DNA of 20,112 nucleotides from a virus. The position numbers were made by a program, and so were the translations under genes. The stretch lies in the IMG/VR virus record IMGVR_UViG_3300022927_000164, positions 1 to 20,112 of that record. One strand, written 5' to 3'. Within the stretch, counting starts at the first letter, position 1; the number at the start of each line of letters is the position of its first letter. Under the pieces are notes generated by a model. The model saw only the letters and a program-made list of their open reading frames with translations. It was not told where the DNA came from and ran no database searches. Positions 1,198 to 18,800 of the stretch are shown piece by piece.

Positions 1198-2373
1198 ATG
1201 AATGTTATCGTTTTAACGCCTGACAGGGTTGGTAGCACCCTGTTACAGCGTTATATCACTGTTATTATGCAAGGGCATGATTACGGTAAGCCAGTAGTAA
1301 ATCTACATGAATTAACCAATGGTCTAGAAACTTACTACAACGAAGAATTTAAAAGAACTATGGTGGGGAAGCCACACCCTAGAGATGAAAATGGTGTTGG
1401 TACTTGGAGTTATCATCAGAGTTTAGATGAAATTATAACCATGTTGGATACCACTGATCATTATAAAACTAGTCGTATGGCACTGTATCATATAGTTAAT
1501 CGAAAAGACGCACCAGAAGATCAACAAAAGTTTTACAAGTATATCAATGATAATTTTTTCATTATTGCGGCGAAACGATTGAATCTATTTGAACATGCCC
1601 TAAGTTGGGTAATTAAAACTAATACAAAAAGATTCAATGCGTACAGTCATGCTGAAAAGTCTGGATTGTTTAACAAATTAGTTGCTAATGGCATTTATGT
1701 TGATGCTGAAATTTTTACAAATTATTTGAGTAGATATCTCAAGTATGAAAGATGGTTAGAAGATAACTTTAGAGTTGACAGTGTATTCAACTATGAAGAA
1801 CACATACAAGACTTAGACGCTTATGTAAGTAGTCTAGACATTTACCCAACCAAAACAGATGTTACTTTTGAAGATGTGATGGGAATGGACTTTAAAACTT
1901 GGAATACTTGTCATTACTTAATCAGTGACGGAAGTAACATTAGCAATTCTATACCTCAACTACTTAGCTCAGAAAAAAATAAAATTTTACTGGAACCGCC
2001 AAAGCAAGTAGAGCAAAATGACGACATGGAAAGACATCGTGTGCTAGGACATCTGACAGATGTAAGTGAAAGAATACAACGAACAGATTTGTCACTACCT
2101 CACCAGGAGTTTTTAGCAGAAAATCTTGGGCAGTATCATGAAATCTGTTTAAAGATGTCCGATTTTAAAAACCGCAGACTAATGGTTAGCCCAATACCAA
2201 TTAAACTAAACACCATGATGGAAAAAGCAAGTATGGTGAGAAACTTTAAAGAACTGTATGAGGCATTTCTCAAATGGTGTGTAGATGAAGATCAAGAACA
2301 CAGAATCATAACACCAGATCAATTAGATGAAAGTGTGTACAACGAACTAGATTTTTGGTATAATAAAAAATGA
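1198..2373 (+). CDS. Sulfotransferase-like protein, copy 1
   Basis: A 391-aa protein. The N-terminal strand-loop-helix (residues 4-20, IVLTPDRVGSTLLQRYI) resembles the 5'-phosphosulfate-binding loop of PAPS-dependent sulfotransferases, where a P-x-x-x-G-[ST]-[ST] type loop grips the 5'-phosphosulfate of PAPS. Residues 121-139 (FIIAAKRLNLFEHALSWVI) resemble the 3'-phosphate motif, a strand ending in Arg followed by a helix with Ser (R127, S136). Residues 218-224 or so (FNYEEH) resemble the Y-E element after the core. A conserved stretch IPIKLNTMMEKASM (333-346) is shared with the next gene and is not a standard sulfotransferase motif. The start follows GAGAGG at good spacing. The stop overlaps the next ATG by 4 bp (ATGA), implying coupled translation. 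The acceptor is unknown. Assignment rests on motifs read by eye, so another P-loop-like transferase remains possible. Confidence 0.6.
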   Translation: MNVIVLTPDRVGSTLLQRYITVIMQGHDYGKPVVNLHELTNGLETYYNEEFKRTMVGKPHPRDENGVGTWSYHQSLDEIITMLDTTDHYKTSRMALYHIVNRKDAPEDQQKFYKYINDNFFIIAAKRLNLFEHALSWVIKTNTKRFNAYSHAEKSGLFNKLVANGIYVDAEIFTNYLSRYLKYERWLEDNFRVDSVFNYEEHIQDLDAYVSSLDIYPTKTDVTFEDVMGMDFKTWNTCHYLISDGSNISNSIPQLLSSEKNKILLEPPKQVEQNDDMERHRVLGHLTDVSERIQRTDLSLPHQEFLAENLGQYHEICLKMSDFKNRRLMVSPIPIKLNTMMEKASMVRNFKELYEAFLKWCVDEDQEHRIITPDQLDESVYNELDFWYNKK

Positions 2374-3539
2374 ATGTTCTAGTGCTTACTCCTGACAGAG
2401 TTGGATCAACTTTATTACAACGTTATATTAGTATAATTATGCAATCACATAATTATGACAAGCCTGTGGTAAATTTACACGAACTCACAAACGGATTAGA
2501 ATTGTACTATAGCGAAAAGCATCAGCGTGAAATGGTGGGCAAACCTCCCACCAAGGATTCACAAGGTAATCGTTTATGGGGATATCACCAAAGTCTAGAT
2601 GAAATTATTGACATACTAGATAGGACAGATCACTATAAAACTAGCAGACTGGCATTGTATCATTTACACAACAGAAATGATGGCCTAGAAAATCAGTTAA
2701 AATTTTATGACTACATTAACAACAATTTCTATCTAATAGCAGCCAAAAGAAAGAACTTATTTGAGTACGGACTGAGTTGGATAATTCAAACTGAAAGTAA
2801 AAAGTTAAATGTGTTTACACATGCTGAAAAAGGCATAGCGTTTAATAAGGTAATGGAAAAAGGTATTGATGTTGATCAAGAAATGCTAACACAATACTTG
2901 GATACCTATCTTGAATACGAAAAATGGATTTCAGACCATTTTAATATCAATATCAACTATTACTATGAGCGTGATAGCCAAAACTTAGACGAGTTTGTAA
3001 AGAAGTTAAACATTTATCCTAACAATGAACAAGCCCATACATTTGAACAAAGTATGGGAATGGATTTTAAACTTTGGAATTCGTGTCATTACTTGTTTAG
3101 TGATACAAGCGGAATTAGCAAAGAGTCAGTTAAACTATTAGGCAACAGTAATGAAATTAAGTTGCTTGAAGCACCAGCGCAGGTAGCACAAAACCAAAAA
3201 AAAGTTACTGGTTCCAAAACATCTGATTTAATGATACGAGCTGAAAGAACAGATTTATCAGTAAATCATCAGGAATTTTTAAAGCAACATTTAGATCAGT
3301 ACAATACAGTATCTAAAAAGATGTGGGATATGAAACAGGACAGAACTCTTGTTAATCCTATACCAATTAAACTAAACACCATGATGGAAAAGGCAAGCAT
3401 GATTAACAACTACCGAGAATGCTTTGAAACATATAATAAATGGTGTGAATCCAGGAATCAACAAGATAGAATCATTGATTTTGAGCAACTAAAAGACATG
3501 GTTTTGGACGAACTTAATTTTTGGTACAGCAACAATTAA
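2370..3539 (+). CDS. Sulfotransferase-like protein, copy 2 (tandem paralogue)
   Basis: A 389-aa paralogue of the upstream gene, well over half identical by eye through the first 150 residues and similar to the end. It keeps the same PAPS-loop-like start (VLVLTPDRVGSTLLQRYI), the same Arg-helix-Ser segment (LIAAKRKNLFEYGLSWII) and the same IPIKLNTMMEKASM block (331-344). A 32-bp stretch coding the last block is identical in both copies (2194-2225 and 3360-3391), suggesting recent duplication, gene conversion or strong constraint. The gene starts inside the stop of copy 1 (ATGA overlap), and its own stop runs into a late-promoter box for the gp14-like gene. Both copies keep the putative binding residues, so neither looks degenerate; they may act on different acceptors or as a heterodimer. 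Function is inferred from motifs only. Confidence 0.6.
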   Translation: MNVLVLTPDRVGSTLLQRYISIIMQSHNYDKPVVNLHELTNGLELYYSEKHQREMVGKPPTKDSQGNRLWGYHQSLDEIIDILDRTDHYKTSRLALYHLHNRNDGLENQLKFYDYINNNFYLIAAKRKNLFEYGLSWIIQTESKKLNVFTHAEKGIAFNKVMEKGIDVDQEMLTQYLDTYLEYEKWISDHFNININYYYERDSQNLDEFVKKLNIYPNNEQAHTFEQSMGMDFKLWNSCHYLFSDTSGISKESVKLLGNSNEIKLLEAPAQVAQNQKKVTGSKTSDLMIRAERTDLSVNHQEFLKQHLDQYNTVSKKMWDMKQDRTLVNPIPIKLNTMMEKASMINNYRECFETYNKWCESRNQQDRIIDFEQLKDMVLDELNFWYSNN

Positions 3540-6613: not shown

Positions 6614-7034
6614 AGCAAGTGGTTGTTTATTTTTAAGTAGTGATACTGGTAGAGTTATGCTACAACAACGAAGTGGAGATACCAGTCATCCTCGCACCTG
6701 GGGATTTTTTGGTGGTAAGAGTGAGGGTAAGGAACGCCCTATTGATACTCTATTAAGAGAATTAGAAGAAGAAATTGGAATGGTGCCTGATATACAAAAA
6801 GTATATCCGCTAAACAAATTTACCAGCCCTGATAAACAATTTGTATATAATACGTTTGTTGTAGAAGTAGTACAAGAATTTATACCGCAATTAAACAATG
6901 AAAGTGATGGATTTTGTTGGGTTAAGATAGGTAATTGGCCGCGTCCATTACATAACGGAGCAAAGGCTCAGTTATTCAACAGACAAATTATTAAAAAAAT
7001 TCGTACAATCTATAGTAATCTTAACCAGCAGTAA
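6606..7034 (+). CDS. Nudix hydrolase
   Basis: A 142-aa protein, the usual size of a single Nudix domain. The Nudix box is complete at residues 37-59: G37, E43, then REL-E-EE-I-G-M with R51, E52, E55, E56 and G58, which fits G-x5-E-x7-R-E-U-x-E-E-x-G-U. The glutamates bind the divalent metal that drives hydrolysis of a nucleoside diphosphate linked to another group. The preceding TWGFFGGK strand is typical. The frame is open 42 bases further upstream, but ATG at 6606 fits the domain start and overlaps the previous stop by 8 bp, suggesting translational coupling. Substrate cannot be read from sequence: nucleotide sugars, ADP-ribose, dinucleoside polyphosphates or oxidised nucleotides are all known in the superfamily. 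T4 also carries a Nudix enzyme (NudE). The gene ends 14 bp inside the oppositely oriented gene at 7021. Confidence 0.9.
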   Translation: MIEASGCLFLSSDTGRVMLQQRSGDTSHPRTWGFFGGKSEGKERPIDTLLRELEEEIGMVPDIQKVYPLNKFTSPDKQFVYNTFVVEVVQEFIPQLNNESDGFCWVKIGNWPRPLHNGAKAQLFNRQIIKKIRTIYSNLNQQ

Positions 7035-8121
7035 TACGCTTCTTCATACTAGCAACAAACTGTTCACGCAACCATTCAAAATCATTGATCTTGTTTAATG
7101 CTTCAACGTCATCTTTGTTTGCTTCACCGTATTCTCTACCTTCTAGTGCGCCTTTGATACAGTAGCGTCCAAAGCGAGCACCATTATCTACAGTACACCA
7201 GGCTTCTAATCGTTCAGCAGTCTCTTTCACAGGAGCATTTGGATTAATCTGACTTGCTAGTTTAACACATTCACGGAATGCTGCTCTCCATGTTCTGTAT
7301 GGATCTTTGTTAAAGTTGGTAATGTTACTTACGTCACTAACTGGTTGATAGAACGAACTACCAGTACTAAAGTCAGGAAGTTCATGTCCCATTTCTTCTA
7401 GTTGTTTTTTAGGGAATAGTTTTACAGCACCATAACCGTATTCCAATCCATTGATTGGGTTTCTGGCTGTCCACACATAAGTCGTGTTATGTCTACTTGA
7501 TAATGGCGGAATAAAATCAAAGTTAAATCTTTCCATAATTTGAGCATCAGCATCAACTATATAAACCATTTCAGTAGTTGCTCTTTTACCAACTTCCCTA
7601 TGAGCATTGCCAATACCTTCAATATTTTTTACATGTTTGGCATCAGGAAAACGTTCTTTTAGGCTAGTAAAGTTTCTATCTGCTTCTGCTTCATGGAAAC
7701 TAATCATAAAGATTTCAAAATCAGCATCGTGGTAAGTAGCATGGATACTATTTTTTAAACTACCATGAGCAAATCCGCCTGTGGGTACAAGTCTCAAATC
7801 TCCCCAACGCACACTACGTCTGCTTCTTTTACCAATACGTGGAAACTCATGTACAAAACTACGTCCTTCAGCACTTGGTTTATAATGCCAGGGAAAATCT
7901 TCTCTAACAACATTGCCCTTTTCCAGTACCCAAACCATATCTGATTGAGTGTTATATTGTCTAGCGACGTCTAAATAGTCGTCAAATAAAGGTAATGCTT
8001 GATCGATTTCATGTACTGGATAACTCTGGAATATATGCTTTTTCAATCTATCCCATGGAGTAATTACATTCTGTTCTTTAAACTCAAATAATTCTGATTT
8101 CAAATCTTTAAAATTAATCAT
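7021..8121 (-). CDS. GT-A-type glycosyltransferase, phage family, 366 aa
   Basis: Probable nucleotide-sugar-dependent glycosyltransferase. The GT-A-like core lies at residues 134-200: FEIFMISFHE, then a helix with FTSLKERFPDAKHV, then IEGIGNAHREVGKRATTEMV, ending in the metal-binding type motif Asp-Ala-Asp (190-192, in YIVDADAQI). Related proteins with the pattern E-x-x-A-D-x-x-x-x-x-L-x-x-x-F-P-x-A-K and a terminal V-D-x-D-A are frequent in large marine phages. Downstream segments YVWTARNPINGLEYGYGAVK and the C-terminal helical part may form the acceptor site. The start overlaps the upstream glycosyltransferase stop by 8 bp (ATGATTAA). The acceptor could be phage DNA, fibre protein or a host polysaccharide. 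Its 3' end overlaps the Nudix gene by 14 bp. Confidence 0.7.
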   Translation of the reverse strand: MINFKDLKSELFEFKEQNVITPWDRLKKHIFQSYPVHEIDQALPLFDDYLDVARQYNTQSDMVWVLEKGNVVREDFPWHYKPSAEGRSFVHEFPRIGKRSRRSVRWGDLRLVPTGGFAHGSLKNSIHATYHDADFEIFMISFHEAEADRNFTSLKERFPDAKHVKNIEGIGNAHREVGKRATTEMVYIVDADAQIMERFNFDFIPPLSSRHNTTYVWTARNPINGLEYGYGAVKLFPKKQLEEMGHELPDFSTGSSFYQPVSDVSNITNFNKDPYRTWRAAFRECVKLASQINPNAPVKETAERLEAWCTVDNGARFGRYCIKGALEGREYGEANKDDVEALNKINDFEWLREQFVASMKKRITAG

Positions 8122-8764
8122 TACAATCGCCTTTTATAGTATATGATTTTGTACCGATGTGAGCAATGTTTTTACTCAAATCATTTTCTAGCCAGACATC
8201 GTATCCTGCTTCTTTTGCTTTTGTACAAAAGTATATATCTTCTCCCATGAGACTATCATTAACTTCGTCCCAAGAGATTCTAAAATGTGGTGCTGGTATG
8301 TTTTCGTAAACTTCTCGTTTTACTAACATACACCCCATACCAACTGCCCAAATCTTTTGTATTCCTGTTCCATCATATACTCTGCTATCTAAGTCGTGTT
8401 CACTTCTAAAAGCAACAGGCCTGTGTGGCGGAACCCTTGTGCTATAGTTACATGCTATAATATCTTTATCATGCGATAGCAGGGCGTTTAAGGTGTATGT
8501 AGGGAAAGATATATCACTATCAATCCATAACAAATGTGTACAATCTGTGTCTAATGCCTGTTCTACTAATTCTTGTCTCTGCATTGTAACTTCGCTACCC
8601 ATAACCATGTTTACCGTAATCTTTTGACCAGCCTGCCCGCACTTATATGTAAGATTGGACAGACTGTTCGCAAACATGATGGTTACAAAGTCACGCACAG
8701 GAACGCAAATAGCAACCCTAGCATCAGTGTTCGTTTTATAATGAAATTTGGGTATGCTTACCAT
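8114..8764 (-). CDS. GT2-like glycosyltransferase, 216 aa
   Basis: A compact GT-A-fold protein. It begins with a strand ARVAICVPVRDFV (15-27) that would start the nucleotide-binding fold. The Asp-x-Asp motif that binds metal and the sugar-nucleotide phosphates is at 82-84 in HLLWIDSDISFP. VGMGCMLVKREVY (141-153) fits the acceptor-loop strand, and GED (174-176, MGEDIYFCTKAKEAGY) fits the catalytic-base region of GT2 enzymes. A final H-I-G (202-204) may be a third metal ligand. It starts one base inside the stop of the 139-aa gene (TAATG) and ends 8 bp inside the next glycosyltransferase, so the three genes form one operon. There is no membrane segment, so it should be cytoplasmic. Sugar and acceptor are unknown. 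Confidence 0.8.
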   Translation of the reverse strand: MVSIPKFHYKTNTDARVAICVPVRDFVTIMFANSLSNLTYKCGQAGQKITVNMVMGSEVTMQRQELVEQALDTDCTHLLWIDSDISFPTYTLNALLSHDKDIIACNYSTRVPPHRPVAFRSEHDLDSRVYDGTGIQKIWAVGMGCMLVKREVYENIPAPHFRISWDEVNDSLMGEDIYFCTKAKEAGYDVWLENDLSKNIAHIGTKSYTIKGDCND

Positions 8765-13339: not shown

Positions 13340-13348
13340 GTATTTATA
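13340..13348 (-). promoter_or_regulatory. T4-type late promoter box (TATAAATAC)
   Basis: On the minus strand TATAAATAC matches the T4 late consensus TATAAATA exactly and adds the C seen at the other three sites. It lies 36 bp before the ATG at 13303 and directly follows the T run of the terminator at 13351-13378, so termination of one fibre transcript and initiation of the next share about ten bases. Confidence 0.75.
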
Positions 13349-13378
13349 AAAAAAGCGGCGTATTGCTACGCCGCTTTT
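13344..13378 (-). terminator. Rho-independent terminator after the 777-aa fibre
   Basis: A perfect 12-bp stem (AAAAGCGGCGTA, 13351-13362, with TACGCCGCTTTT, 13367-13378) and a 4-nt loop. On the minus strand the GC-rich stem runs into seven T residues, a classic intrinsic terminator, 22 bp after the stop at 13400. The + strand side has only four T, so it may work weakly in the other direction. Confidence 0.88.
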
Positions 13379-13399
13379 CAGGTCAGTTAAACTTAAAAC

Positions 13400-15733
13400 T
13401 TAGTGTAAAGTATTACCTTTTTCTGCTTTAAGTTCGTTAACTTCTTCTTTTAGATCTTTAATTGCTTCAATTAGTAGACCAACTAGGTTACCATATTTAA
13501 CAGCCATTAGACCTTCTTCGTCAGTTGACACCGCTTCTGGAAGAACTGCGTGTACATCCTGTGCGCTAACACCAGTAGAAATACTACCGTCTGCAATACG
13601 CTCAAATGTAATACCACGAAGTGCCATTACTTTATCTAGACCATTTTCAATTTCATGAACGTTAGTCTTTAGACGATCATCTGAGTAAGCAGTTACGTCG
13701 CCAGCAGCATAAATTGCTCCGCCAACACCTAAACCACCACTGATTTTAACAGCACCAGTTGTTGCTGATGTTGCAGCAGTTGTATTACTAAATGTAATAA
13801 CACCAGTTGCTGTATCGTTAGCATTTGAAGCAATGTAGTTACTGTGTGAGTGACTATCATTTGCCACTGTAGCAGTTAGTGTAGCATTACCTAAGTTAGT
13901 AAATGTAGCACTACCAGACACATCACCAGTTAATGTTAGTGTTGGATCTGCTGTTGCTGTTGTTGAGATACTTACGTTACCTAGGTTTGTCATCGTACCA
14001 GAACCAGTAACAGCACCTGTTAATGTAACTGTTGGACTCTGGTTTTGTTTAGCAAGTTGTACCCAATTACCACTGTGAGCAAAATACGCAGCGCCTTCAC
14101 CGTGAACGTGAGCAAACATACCGTGATATGAACTTGCTGATGGTAAGTCACCAGTTGTAGAATAAACGTTTGAGAACAATATCTTGTTTGTTCCTAAGTC
14201 TAGATCAGCACCTTCAATTTCTGTTCTCACAGCTGCATCAAAGCCATCAATATTTGATGTAACGTGATTGTGGCTATCATCAGCAACCGTTACAGTTAAT
14301 GTAGCACTTCCTAGATTAGTAAGAGTTGCGCTACCTGAAGCATCACCAGCAAGTGTGATTGTTGGATCACTTGTTGCTGTTGTTGCCAGTGATACGTTAC
14401 CACTACCATCAATGCTTGCACTACCTGTGACAGCACCTGTTAGGCTTAGTGTACGAGCTGTTTCCCATGTACTTGCTGTATCAGCGTTACCACTGAAACC
14501 ACCGCCGGCGGCAATTTTACTTCCATCGGCACTGATTGTAGCACTACCAAGTTTAATTGTGCTACCACTTAGATATAGGTCACGCCATTTTAACGAACTT
14601 GAACCCAAGTCATATGTAACATCTGTTTCTGGTAACATGTGACCAGTTTTTAGTGTTTCAGCATTTGTTGTCCACTCGTCGTTTGTTTCGTCCCAAACAA
14701 AACTTACGTTAGAACTTGAACCACGCTCAATTTCAAAACCACCGTTTTGACTTGGAGCACCAGTTTCGTCACTGTTAAGTGTTATAACACTATCACCAAT
14801 ATTAACTGTATTACTGTTAACAGTAGTTGTTGTTCCTGAAACTGTTAGGTTACCACCAACTGTAACGTTACCACTTGTACCAAGAGATGTAAATGTACCA
14901 GCTGCTGGAGTGTTACCACCAACGATACCGTCTAGGTTACCAGTTACGTTACCAGTTACGTCACCAGTTACGTCACCAGTTACGTTACCAGTTAGGTCGC
15001 CAGTTACATCACCAGTGATTGTACTACTAGCGTCAATTGTTGTAAAGTTACCTGCTGCAGCTGTTGTACCACCAATAGTTGTGCCGTCAATGTTACCACC
15101 ATTGATATCCACTGTTGGAATAGTTGTTGTTCCGGTAAATGTTGGACTTGCTGTAGGTGCTTTAGTGTTGATCTGTGTTTGAACATTACTTGTTACACCG
15201 TCCATGTAGTTTAGTTCAGCAGTTGTAGCAGTAACACCATCTAGGATGTTTAGTTCTGCTGTAGAAACTGTAGCACCATCTAGGATGTTTAGTTCTGCTG
15301 TAGAAACTGTAGCACCATCTAGTTTGTTTAACTCAGTACCAGTAGCAGTAACTTGTTTACCAGCAATCTTTAATGTACCAGCATCTACTGTACCTGCTGA
15401 TGCGTCAATAGTTGTTTTAACTAACATGGTGTCATTAAAAAGTGTGTCACTTTTAAAACGCACTGAATTAGTAAATTTATCAGGATAACTTGCGTCATCG
15501 CTGTCAGTCGCGTTACCGTCAGTTGTTTTAAGTGTTGCCGCTATAATCGAAACGTTACGTTCTAGGTCAGCAATACGTCTTAGGTTAGATTTACTACCAG
15601 TAAAAACGATATCTGTATCGCCCGGTTCACCAGTAAATTCTGTAAGTGTACCATCCGCACTATATTTGTATTTCTTGGTTCTGTCTAGACTACTGTCACT
15701 AGTTGAACCACCACTTCTTAGTTTTCTTGCCAT
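13400..15733 (-). CDS. Tail fibre with C-terminal S74 intramolecular chaperone, 777 aa
   Basis: Probable trimeric fibre. The N-terminus (MARKLRSGGSTSDSSLDRTK, then GEPGDTDIVFTGSKSNLRRI) differs from the other fibres and may be its own attachment domain. Around residues 130-185 are four 13-residue repeats of the type T-V-S-T-A-E-L-N-I-L-D-G-A. Near 240-264 is a T-G-[DN]-[VL] repeat (14943-15014). GNLTVSGTTTTVNSNTVNIG (near 291-310) opens a module like that of the 644-aa fibre, as does GDLPSASSYHGMFAHVH near 525-541. The last 94 residues are an S74 chaperone: S684-D-D-R-L-K689, then VSAQDVHAVLPEAV and AVKYGNLVGLLIEAI, with a coiled-coil end (DLKEEVNELKAEKG). The Ser-Lys pair for self-cleavage is intact. 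AAGGGGAGA (15741-15749) precedes the ATG. The leader upstream is strongly structured. Confidence 0.85.
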   Translation of the reverse strand: MARKLRSGGSTSDSSLDRTKKYKYSADGTLTEFTGEPGDTDIVFTGSKSNLRRIADLERNVSIIAATLKTTDGNATDSDDASYPDKFTNSVRFKSDTLFNDTMLVKTTIDASAGTVDAGTLKIAGKQVTATGTELNKLDGATVSTAELNILDGATVSTAELNILDGVTATTAELNYMDGVTSNVQTQINTKAPTASPTFTGTTTIPTVDINGGNIDGTTIGGTTAAAGNFTTIDASSTITGDVTGDLTGNVTGDVTGDVTGNVTGNLDGIVGGNTPAAGTFTSLGTSGNVTVGGNLTVSGTTTTVNSNTVNIGDSVITLNSDETGAPSQNGGFEIERGSSSNVSFVWDETNDEWTTNAETLKTGHMLPETDVTYDLGSSSLKWRDLYLSGSTIKLGSATISADGSKIAAGGGFSGNADTASTWETARTLSLTGAVTGSASIDGSGNVSLATTATSDPTITLAGDASGSATLTNLGSATLTVTVADDSHNHVTSNIDGFDAAVRTEIEGADLDLGTNKILFSNVYSTTGDLPSASSYHGMFAHVHGEGAAYFAHSGNWVQLAKQNQSPTVTLTGAVTGSGTMTNLGNVSISTTATADPTLTLTGDVSGSATFTNLGNATLTATVANDSHSHSNYIASNANDTATGVITFSNTTAATSATTGAVKISGGLGVGGAIYAAGDVTAYSDDRLKTNVHEIENGLDKVMALRGITFERIADGSISTGVSAQDVHAVLPEAVSTDEEGLMAVKYGNLVGLLIEAIKDLKEEVNELKAEKGNTLH
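14943..15014 (-). repeat. 12-bp tandem repeat in the 777-aa fibre, 6 units
   Basis: Six 12-bp units close to GTTACGTCACCA on the + strand, coding T-G-[DN]-[VL] repeats on the minus strand. Two neighbouring units (14955-14978) are identical. Confidence 0.8.
15241..15318 (-). repeat. Perfect 39-bp tandem duplication in the 777-aa fibre
   Basis: Bases 15241-15279 and 15280-15318 are identical. They code two copies of the 13-residue unit TVSTAELNILDGA and are flanked by diverged copies on both sides. Identity at silent positions suggests recent slippage or recombination. Confidence 0.85.
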
Positions 15734-15766
15734 TTTAATCTCTCCCCTTAGAGTTTAACTACCACG

Positions 15767-15826
15767 AGCCAGTAACTCAGTTACCGCAAGCCGTTTCCGG
15801 CACCTAGGGGGTTGGCTCCCCCTAGG
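15767..15826 (-). other. Structured RNA element with possible pseudoknot upstream of the 777-aa fibre
   Basis: Read on the minus strand after the stop of the right-edge fibre there are three hairpins in about 55 nt: a 9-bp stem CCTAGGGGG/CCCCCTAGG with loop AGCCAA (15803-15826), a GCCG-GAAA-CGGC stem with a GNRA tetraloop (15790-15801), and a 5-bp GTAAC/GTTAC stem (15772-15784). The loop bases AGCCA of the first hairpin are complementary to TGGCT just after the third (15767-15771), which would close a pseudoknot round the two inner hairpins. No T run follows, so it is not a standard terminator. It could be a processing or stability element, a cis-regulatory RNA or an attenuating structure. 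I do not recognise it as a known RNA family. Confidence 0.45.
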
Positions 15827-15842
15827 TTTGGATAGTTATAAA

Positions 15843-18800
15843 TTAAGCATTAACATGCTTTAGTCCTGTTACTTCTAGTTCGTCGTTTGTTTCTAGAACA
15901 CCCTGAACAATAGTTAGTGTTGAACCACTAACTGTATATTCTGTTGTTGGACGAAGTAACTGTCTGTTCAAGAACACTTGATATGTCAACGCTGTTGACA
16001 GATCGCTAAATGTATATGCTTGTGTTCCTGAAGCGTTAGCAGTTGCTTCACCACTAGAAACCACAGTTACTGAACTATGGAAGTGTGTAAAGTCGCTTAC
16101 ATCTGTAAGTGAGCCAGTTAAATCACCAGTTACGTTACCAGTTACGTTACCTGTAACATCACCTGTAACATCACCAGTTAAATCACCAGTTACATTACCT
16201 GTTACGTTACCTGTTAGGGCACCGTAAATAGCATCACCGTGAATTTCTGCAAACGCTGTACCACTAGCACCTAAATCATATGTGCTATTAGCACTTGGTA
16301 AGATGTCACTAGCAACATCTGCGCTAAACGCAACAGTGTCAGTAGCCGCATCACCAAATGTTAAGTTACCAGCAATAGTAGCATCACCAGTAACTGTTAG
16401 GTTACCAGCAATATTAACATCAGCATCTGCTGTTAGTGTACTTGTAACGTCTAGTGTACCAGCAATATCAATGTTTGTAGCAAGTTTAGCACTTGTTACA
16501 GCATTGTTCTGGATCTCACCTGTACCAACACCATTAGTTGGAACATATGGAACCGCACTACTATCAGCACTTACAACCACAGCACTTGTGCCTGTTGGCA
16601 TAGTGTCTGTAAATGTAACTGTCTGGTTACTAGCATTAAACGAGTAGTGTGTACTTGGATCCTGGATAATACCACCAACGAACACAAGTGTTCCGCTGTT
16701 TGGTGTAAATCCTAGATTAAATGTTGTTGAACTACCGTCACCGTTTAGTGTTACACGGTTTTGTGTACTAAACGAAACCGTAGCAGGGTCAACAAGCTCA
16801 AATCCACTAGCATCTGCTTTAACCTGTAGTAGGTAATCGCCTTTACCAGTAAGACTTGTATCACTAACGTCTGCTAGGTCTACAACATTGAAGTAACGGC
16901 TTGCGTTTACCCAAGCACTACCATTGTAGTATATGCCATCATCAGCAGACGCACTTGTTATAGTTACGTTGCCAAGGTCTGTTAGGTCATGGTTACTAAT
17001 GTCACTTACAGTACCAGTTACATCACCAGTTAGGTCGCCAATAAAGCCACCGTTACCAGTAATTGCGCCAGTTGCTGTTGTAGCACCAGTAATTGCTAGT
17101 GTACCACCGATTGCTGTGTTACCACTTGTATCAGCAACAGTAAATACTCCATCTACATCAATACCACCATCTAGTGAGGCAAGTCCTGTTACGTCTAGTG
17201 TACCACCAAATGTAACGTTACCAGTAACATCAAGTGTACCAGCAACCGCTGTATTACCGTTTGATACAGCAACAGTAAAGTTACCAGCACCAATATCAAA
17301 GTCAGTACCATCAAATGTTAAGTTAGTACTGTCTTCTAGCGCACCACCTGTACCTGCTAGTACAATACCGTTTGCTGTAAGATCACTAACTGTAGCACTT
17401 GCTAAGGTTGCTTCACCAGTTGAACCTAGTGTACCGCCGATTGTTACGTTGTTAGTAACACTAACGCTACCAAATGTAACGTTAGCAGTTGTAGCAACGT
17501 CCTGACCAATTTCAATTTCAACATCGTTATCAGTAATAGTTGTCGCAACACCTGTACCACCACTAAATGTTAGTGTATCAGTACCAACAGTTACACTGTC
17601 TGTACCACTGTCACCAGCAATATCTAGACTACTTGGAATACTGACTTCGGTAACAGCAGTAATTAAACCTTTACCGTTTACAGTAATTTGAGCAACGTTT
17701 GTACTGTCACCAAATGTACCAGTATCAGAGTTAACAGTTGCTAGAGTTAAAGCACCACTTACGTTAGCACTACCATCAAAACTACTAATTGTAGCAGTAC
17801 CATCGCCAGTTAGGCTTAAATCTCTTGCTGTTGCCAACGCTGTGGCTGTATCAGCATTACCAGTTAAGTCACCTGTTACATCACCTGTTACATCACCTGT
17901 TAGGTCACCAGTGAATGATGTACCTGTAACAGCACCAAATACCGCATCAGCAGCTGTACCACTAAACACTTCACTTGTGTTTGTAGCACCTACTAAAGCA
18001 GTAAATGTTCCAGCACTGTCATCATAACCAAAGAAACCAACTTTTGCTGAGCCGTCGTTATACTTGAACTCAACACCGCGGTCTTTGTTATCATCTGATG
18101 CGTTAGAACCAATTGTGTAAACTGGATCTGTGATTTCAACCACTGTACTGTTAACAGTTGTAGTTGTACCACTTACAGTTAAGTCGCCTGTAACAGTAAG
18201 GTTATTACCGATAGTTACATCATTGGCAAGACCAACTGTAACTTCGTTATCACTTACAACAACAGTTGTTTCATTTGCTGTAGCAGTAAATGTCAACACG
18301 TCTGTGGCAAGGTTAACTGTATCAGTGTTTGATCCGTCTGTCATATCAAGTTCAGTACTGATGCTTGCTGTGGTTACTCCAGTAATTTGACCTTGTGCGT
18401 TATATGTTAGAACCGGAATAGCAGTTGTACTACCAACTGAACCCGCTGTAATCTGATCACTTAGTGTGACCGTAATTGTGTCTGTTGTACTAGCATCTGT
18501 TTCGATACCAGTTCCACCAGCAATAGTAAATGTGTCTGTACCAACAGCAATACTGTCAGTATCAACATCACCAGCAATCGACATTGCGATGCCAATGCTT
18601 GCTGTACCAGCAGAGGTTAGTCGACCTTGTTGATCTACTGTAAATGTTGGAATAGCACTTGAACTACCATATGATCCTGGAGTTACCGCAGTATCACTCA
18701 AGTCATATGTTACAGTGTTAGCAGTTACAGTTGATTCAACACCAGTACCACCACTAAATGTTAGTGTTTCAGTACTAGTAATAAGGTTGTCAGTACCAGT

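Follow-up and report, generated by a model that had tools for sequence, protein, structure and literature searches.

Phage fibre genes determine the bacteria to which a phage attaches. Stable RNA structure between the cistrons of phage messages is familiar: T4 mRNAs carry stable intercistronic hairpins, and T7 mRNAs carry intercistronic RNase III sites. The RNA described here, found between two tail-fibre genes of a large uncultured bacterial virus, has in common with these elements a stable structure between cistrons of what is probably a late message, and its second hairpin (P2) can bear UUCG or GNRA loops, a further likeness. Unlike the T4 and T7 elements, each a single hairpin recurring at many gaps, it is a four-way junction with conserved letters and covariation at one fixed locus. 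The manA and wcaG motifs (RF01745 and RF01761), which occur in marine T4-like cyanophages (PMC2864571), are likewise structured RNAs of untranslated regions that came from comparative genomics of marine metagenomes and T4-like phages; they precede metabolic genes, whereas the present RNA is found only between two fibre genes, and their Rfam models gave no gathering-score match in the window (the whole 20,112-nt stretch analyzed, from IMG/VR record IMGVR_UViG_3300022927_000164) and 18 relatives. Translational coupling by intercistronic structure (reviewed in PMC12548453) likewise places stop codon, structure and Shine-Dalgarno in close succession; unlike coupling systems, in which gaps are short or overlapping, the gap here measures ~86-160 nt and the Shine-Dalgarno is already accessible.

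A Four-Way Junction Between Fibre Genes A and B

Both flanking genes, A and B, lie on the minus strand, and the hairpins are read on that same strand, with the RNA taking up the whole gap from the stop codon of fibre gene A, upstream, to the Shine-Dalgarno of fibre gene B, downstream. The initial annotation had described three consecutive hairpins in this gap, one of them GNRA-capped; these are present as claimed but belong to a larger four-way junction (15838-15756, minus strand), in which P1, P2 and P3 are joined by a closing helix, P0, that was missed at that stage and whose covariation support is strong. The elements follow one another in the order P0-CAA-P1-P2-UUG-P3-GCUCGU-P0'-Shine-Dalgarno-AUG (Table 1). 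The core of hairpin 1, CCTAGGGGG-AGCCAA-CCCCCTAGG, occupies 15826-15803 and reaches 10 bp if A15827-T15802 is counted, and hairpin 3 can be written as (CG)GTAAC-TGA-GTTAC(TG), 15786-15770. Stability exceeds that of shuffled sequences, with z of -3.25 for the gap and -3.93 for the exact element. The existence of the four-way-junction RNA is very well supported, and its self-contained fold measures 74-105 nt.

Table 1. Features of the A-B gap and its surroundings, in window coordinates
Feature	Position	Strand	Remarks
TAA stop of gene A	15843..15845	-	TAA likewise in all 39 hand-aligned relatives' RNAs
P0, 5' strand, TAACTATC	15831..15838	-	4 nt past gene A stop; covariation
Junction J01, CAA	15828..15830	-	YAA in 39/39 hand-aligned RNAs
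P1 hairpin, ACCTAGGGGG-AGCCAA-CCCCCTAGGT	15802..15827	-	folding; covariation
P2 hairpin, GCCG-GAAA-CGGC, GNRA loop	15790..15801	-	folding; covariation
Junction J23, UUG	15787..15789	-	U invariant; usually AUG/UUG/AUA
P3 hairpin, CGGTAAC-TGA-GTTACTG	15770..15786	-	folding; covariation
TGGCT, proposed partner of AGCCA (15817-15813)	15767..15771	-	not conserved
Junction J30, GCUCGU with conserved YCG	15764..15769	-	39/39 hand-aligned RNAs
P0, 3' strand, GGTAGTTA	15756..15763	-	pairs with TAACTATC; covariation
Shine-Dalgarno of gene B, AAGGGGAG	15742..15749	-	accessible beside folded RNA
Gene B, fibre, 777 aa	13400..15733	-	Peptidase_S74 chaperone at C terminus
Intrinsic terminator GCGGCGT-AGCAAT-ACGCCGC-T7, then late-promoter-like TATAAATA	13341..13399	-	end of A-RNA-B unit

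Gene A encodes a long fibre protein whose reading frame stays open to the end of the window and, counted from the listed start, covers 1236 aa or more. Gene B, which starts at 15733, matches distal subunits of long tail fibres in PHROG and PDB; AlphaFold gave its N-terminal 90 aa a pLDDT of 63, an uninformative model. No homologue of gene B was found in the genome collection; in tblastn searches against phages, the B N termini of three clades gave no match and the A C terminus of one relative gave short-stretch matches only. The tail-sheath stabilizer and neighboring proteins are 33-40% identical to those of PA5oct, Atu_ph07 and similar phages, which places the window near the jumbo T4-like group. 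Elsewhere in the window, two tandem similar ORFs of ~390 aa (1198-2373 and 2370-3539) start with MNV(I/L)VLTPDRVGSTLLQRY and have no significant Pfam family, and a glycosyltransferase-like gene (Anp1/PHROG; 8114-8764) and an adjacent gene without Pfam or PHROG family, together at 7021-8764 on the minus strand, adjoin the fibre cluster.

Compensatory Change Across Homologous Gaps

A search of IMG/VR with the N terminus of gene B yielded 66 loci. Between clades the gap sequences look unrelated, yet all four arms recur in their folds, always in one order. Because MAFFT alone misaligned P2 and P3 between clades, we aligned by structural element: 33 gaps were cut by hand into their elements, and 16 diverse ones were N-padded for pair counts. 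In these 16 sequences, 91% of cells are paired, 28 of the 34 pairs have both sides changed, double-changed cells number 137 against 45 in shuffled sequences, and the covariation score is 0.60, compared with 0.19 for shuffled sequences and at most 0.14 for slid partners; the count rests on element boundaries that we set ourselves, and the slid controls collapse nonetheless. All four helices contribute, with 10 of the 11 P1 pairs changed on both sides across the family. A set of 38 sequences, fitted to the covariance model and hence leaning its way, gives the same picture (275 double-changed cells vs. 82). Parsimony on a tree of gene-B N termini counts 128 branches with both-side pair changes vs. 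23 with single-side changes, figures that are approximate, since the deep branches of the tree are weakly supported.

Compensatory changes above both the shuffled and the slid controls reveal a structured RNA under selection. The initial annotation had suggested that the RNA in this gap acts in cis and is no simple terminator, and looked to paired stem changes in homologous gaps as a check; such changes are found, and the reading gains strong support from them. Across the family, compensatory change has kept the predicted P0/P1/P2/P3 fold together with the YAA, U and YCG letters of the junction.

Junction Letters and Natural Variants

All 39 distinct hand-aligned RNAs have YAA in J01, U in J23 and YCG in J30, without exception; J23 is mostly AUG, UUG or AUA, and J12 is empty in 18 of the 39, with P1 directly abutting P2. 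In L214, which was found after the 39-RNA alignment, UCAG replaces YCG, and in L260 all junction letters are present. Invariant unpaired letters of this kind would be expected of a specific tertiary fold or a binding site, and only because of them is a riboswitch or protein-binding leader hinted at. The P2 loop of L033 is UUCG instead of GNRA. Although only 33 of 989 pairs are G-U, the occurrence of both loop kinds in P2 favours an RNA over a DNA cruciform.

Reduced forms also occur. L003 (906-979) and L004 (1909-1982) have no P2, leaving a three-way junction, and L070 (1051-1141), on the same contig as L253, has a gene-B homologue and an A-B gap with a P1-like hairpin only (GGGGGATGACATCCCCC); L070/L253 is a natural reduced variant. 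Part or all of the fold can thus be lost.

Distribution of the RNA

The covariance model places the RNA at the A-B gap in 71 of 77 loci with a gene-B homologue (E < 0.001), many of the 77 contigs being near-duplicates. Five near-identical loci (L206-L210) fall at E 0.12-0.16, and hand folding gives them the same arms; the remaining locus is L253, with its P1-like hairpin only. Members left out of the building of model R2 scored 58.8 bits (L116), 50.3 (L123), 48.6 (L216), 42.1 (L260), 37.2 (L214) and 31.2 (L224). Whole records, those of 160-342 kb included, usually contain one copy, as in 23 of 25 records with model R1, and L004, which R1 missed, was found by R2. Weak antisense matches at the A-B gap are mirror images of the hairpins.

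Outside these loci, a distant blastn search with the gap as query found nothing among 50,697 phage records. An Rfam 15 search, proposed with the initial annotation, returned no family at the gathering threshold in the window and 18 relatives, and the matches below that score were at chance level (E above 1). R2 gave no convincing copy, only weak matches, in eleven cultured phages (eight jumbo relatives, P-SSM2, HTVC008M and T4), and weak matches only in one uncultured 484-kb record. We took the HTVC008M match, which follows the major head gene, the P-SSM2 match, between purL and hsp20, and the strongest PA5oct matches, among small hypothetical genes, to be chance hairpins. In PA5oct (MK797984), several weak R2 matches cluster at 14824-35461, within and beside small hypothetical genes of the terminal repeat; these are probably unrelated intergenic hairpins. 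No description of the RNA was found in the open-access PMC literature.

Possible Role of the RNA in the Fibre Message

The A-B gap contains no late promoter (TATAAATA) at any of the 39 loci and no terminator-like site was found there; the earlier statement that the gap has no T run is borne out by the window sequence. The longest T run is 2-4 in most relatives, and runs of 5-6 occur in the gaps of L013, L030 and L033 but do not follow P1. After gene B, most readable loci have a hairpin with T5-9, followed in several by TATAAATA; in the window, this T4-type late-promoter-like sequence stands at 13348-13341, before the next fibre gene. Many clade B and C contigs have another short-gap gene after B instead. 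Because neither a T-run terminator nor TATAAATA stands between A and B, and most readable relatives carry a terminator behind B, A, the RNA and B probably form one dicistronic or longer late mRNA.

It is plausible, as originally suggested from the window, that the RNA controls, protects or processes the fibre mRNA. We give about an even chance to a reading in which the four-way junction, lying in the intercistronic region of a late dicistronic A-B fibre mRNA, would act in cis and control gene B post-transcriptionally. In the mechanism that we infer, A, the RNA and B would be transcribed together as one late message, the folded junction would be a recognition platform on which the ribosome, or a protein of phage or host, could act, and this platform would set the amount of fibre B made from the A-B message. 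In relatives, the distance from the gene A stop to P0 is mostly 2-7 nt, and that from the end of P0' to the gene B start is mostly 16-30 nt (4-7 nt in clade D, where P0' overlaps 3 nt of the Shine-Dalgarno). P0 would be reachable by a ribosome terminating on A, so that translation of A could reset the fold. By RNAfold energies, the cost of opening the region from Shine-Dalgarno to AUG in the window goes from 5.8 to 6.2 kcal/mol when the P0 5' strand is freed, and in other members it shifts by ~2 kcal/mol or less, in either direction. Because this cost barely moves, the calculation provides no direct link between fold and initiation. That counts against the favoured mechanism, as do the reduced forms described above and the report that coupling is weakened by structure right behind a stop codon (PMC12548453). 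A Shine-Dalgarno-masking switch was considered and rejected: the Shine-Dalgarno of B is unmasked in most clades, and the opening of P0 barely changes the cost, as judged from RNAfold energies only.

We favour the recognition platform, and its main rival is an mRNA stability or processing element, in which the junction would stop or steer nucleases of the host or the phage at the A-B boundary and give each half of the message its own lifetime, as the T7 RNase III sites and the stable T4 hairpins do. A strong compact fold set precisely where two cistrons of a shared message meet, and leaving the Shine-Dalgarno downstream free, is what such an element would look like, and the frequent P1-P2 adjacency (J12 empty, as above) would permit stacking into a longer helix; however, a pure roadblock has no need of invariant YAA, U and YCG letters, and arms of 4-12 bp are short for RNase III, so we consider this reading rather unlikely. 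The placement of the P0 strands, at the distances from stop and start given above, also fits a passive termination-reinitiation bridge, in which P0 closure would bring the A stop and B start, ~110 nt apart, to within ~20-30 nt and ribosomes coming off A would restart on B, and the overlap of the clade D P0' with the Shine-Dalgarno goes the same way. Against this, P0 would be covered and melted by any ribosome that terminates on A, structure just downstream of a stop codon is reported to lower coupling (PMC12548453), and the opening of P0 frees no Shine-Dalgarno in the calculation; such a bridge is distinctly improbable. Less probable still is a separate small noncoding RNA or ribozyme that would be cut from the fibre message and act in trans or in the virion. 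A single-copy, self-contained fold of 74-105 nt with conserved junction letters might be taken that way, but the RNA is strictly linked to the A-B gap and to homologues of gene B, and neither the window nor the 18 relatives searched reach the gathering score of a self-cleaving ribozyme family in Rfam (hammerhead, HDV, twister or pistol).

We see very little chance that the functional core is the hairpin-loop pseudoknot AGCCA/TGGCT, which the first reading of the window had put forward. The complementarity itself is present (five of five positions), but ~7% of shuffled loops equal it, and it is lost in relatives: L002, the nearest (~90% identical in gene B), has TGTCT with three complementary positions, L003 and L004 have TAGCT, also with three, and L013 has no complement, with two positions only. 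Among the 39 RNAs, P1 loops mostly match the 3' side no better than shuffled loops do; three near-identical clade-B gaps (L005, L006 and L017) exceed the shuffles through GACA/TGTC, and close relatives are without it. The TGGCTC stretch, moreover, overlaps P3 and the conserved YCG letters, with which the pairing would compete. From these comparisons we conclude that the pseudoknot is not a conserved feature. An intrinsic transcription terminator after gene A is scarcely credible, since the gap has the requisite GC-rich stem, the P1 hairpin soon after the stop codon, but no T run directly behind P1 at any of the 39 loci, and the T5-9 terminators sit after gene B in most readable relatives.

Significance for Phage Biology

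Because it has no Rfam match, no convincing copy in the cultured relatives searched and no description in the open-access PMC literature, we regard the RNA as a new family of functional RNAs, of the known kind that comprises structured leader and intercistronic RNAs. The family is marked by a shape that dozens of related viruses have kept although their sequences have changed heavily, and a covariance model for it is already available. Compensatory changes have accumulated in it at a very high rate, so that RNA evolution in phages can be tested cleanly on this family. The presence of a dedicated RNA of conserved structure between two fibre genes suggests RNA-level regulation of fibre production. 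We tentatively raise the possibility of a new phage riboregulator class, in which the invariant YAA/U/YCG core might bind a small ligand or a specific protein, such as a fibre protein or the chaperone of one, and so tune fibre production or ratio during infection; if true, this class would belong to a widespread group of uncultured phages related to the cultured jumbo T4-like phages.
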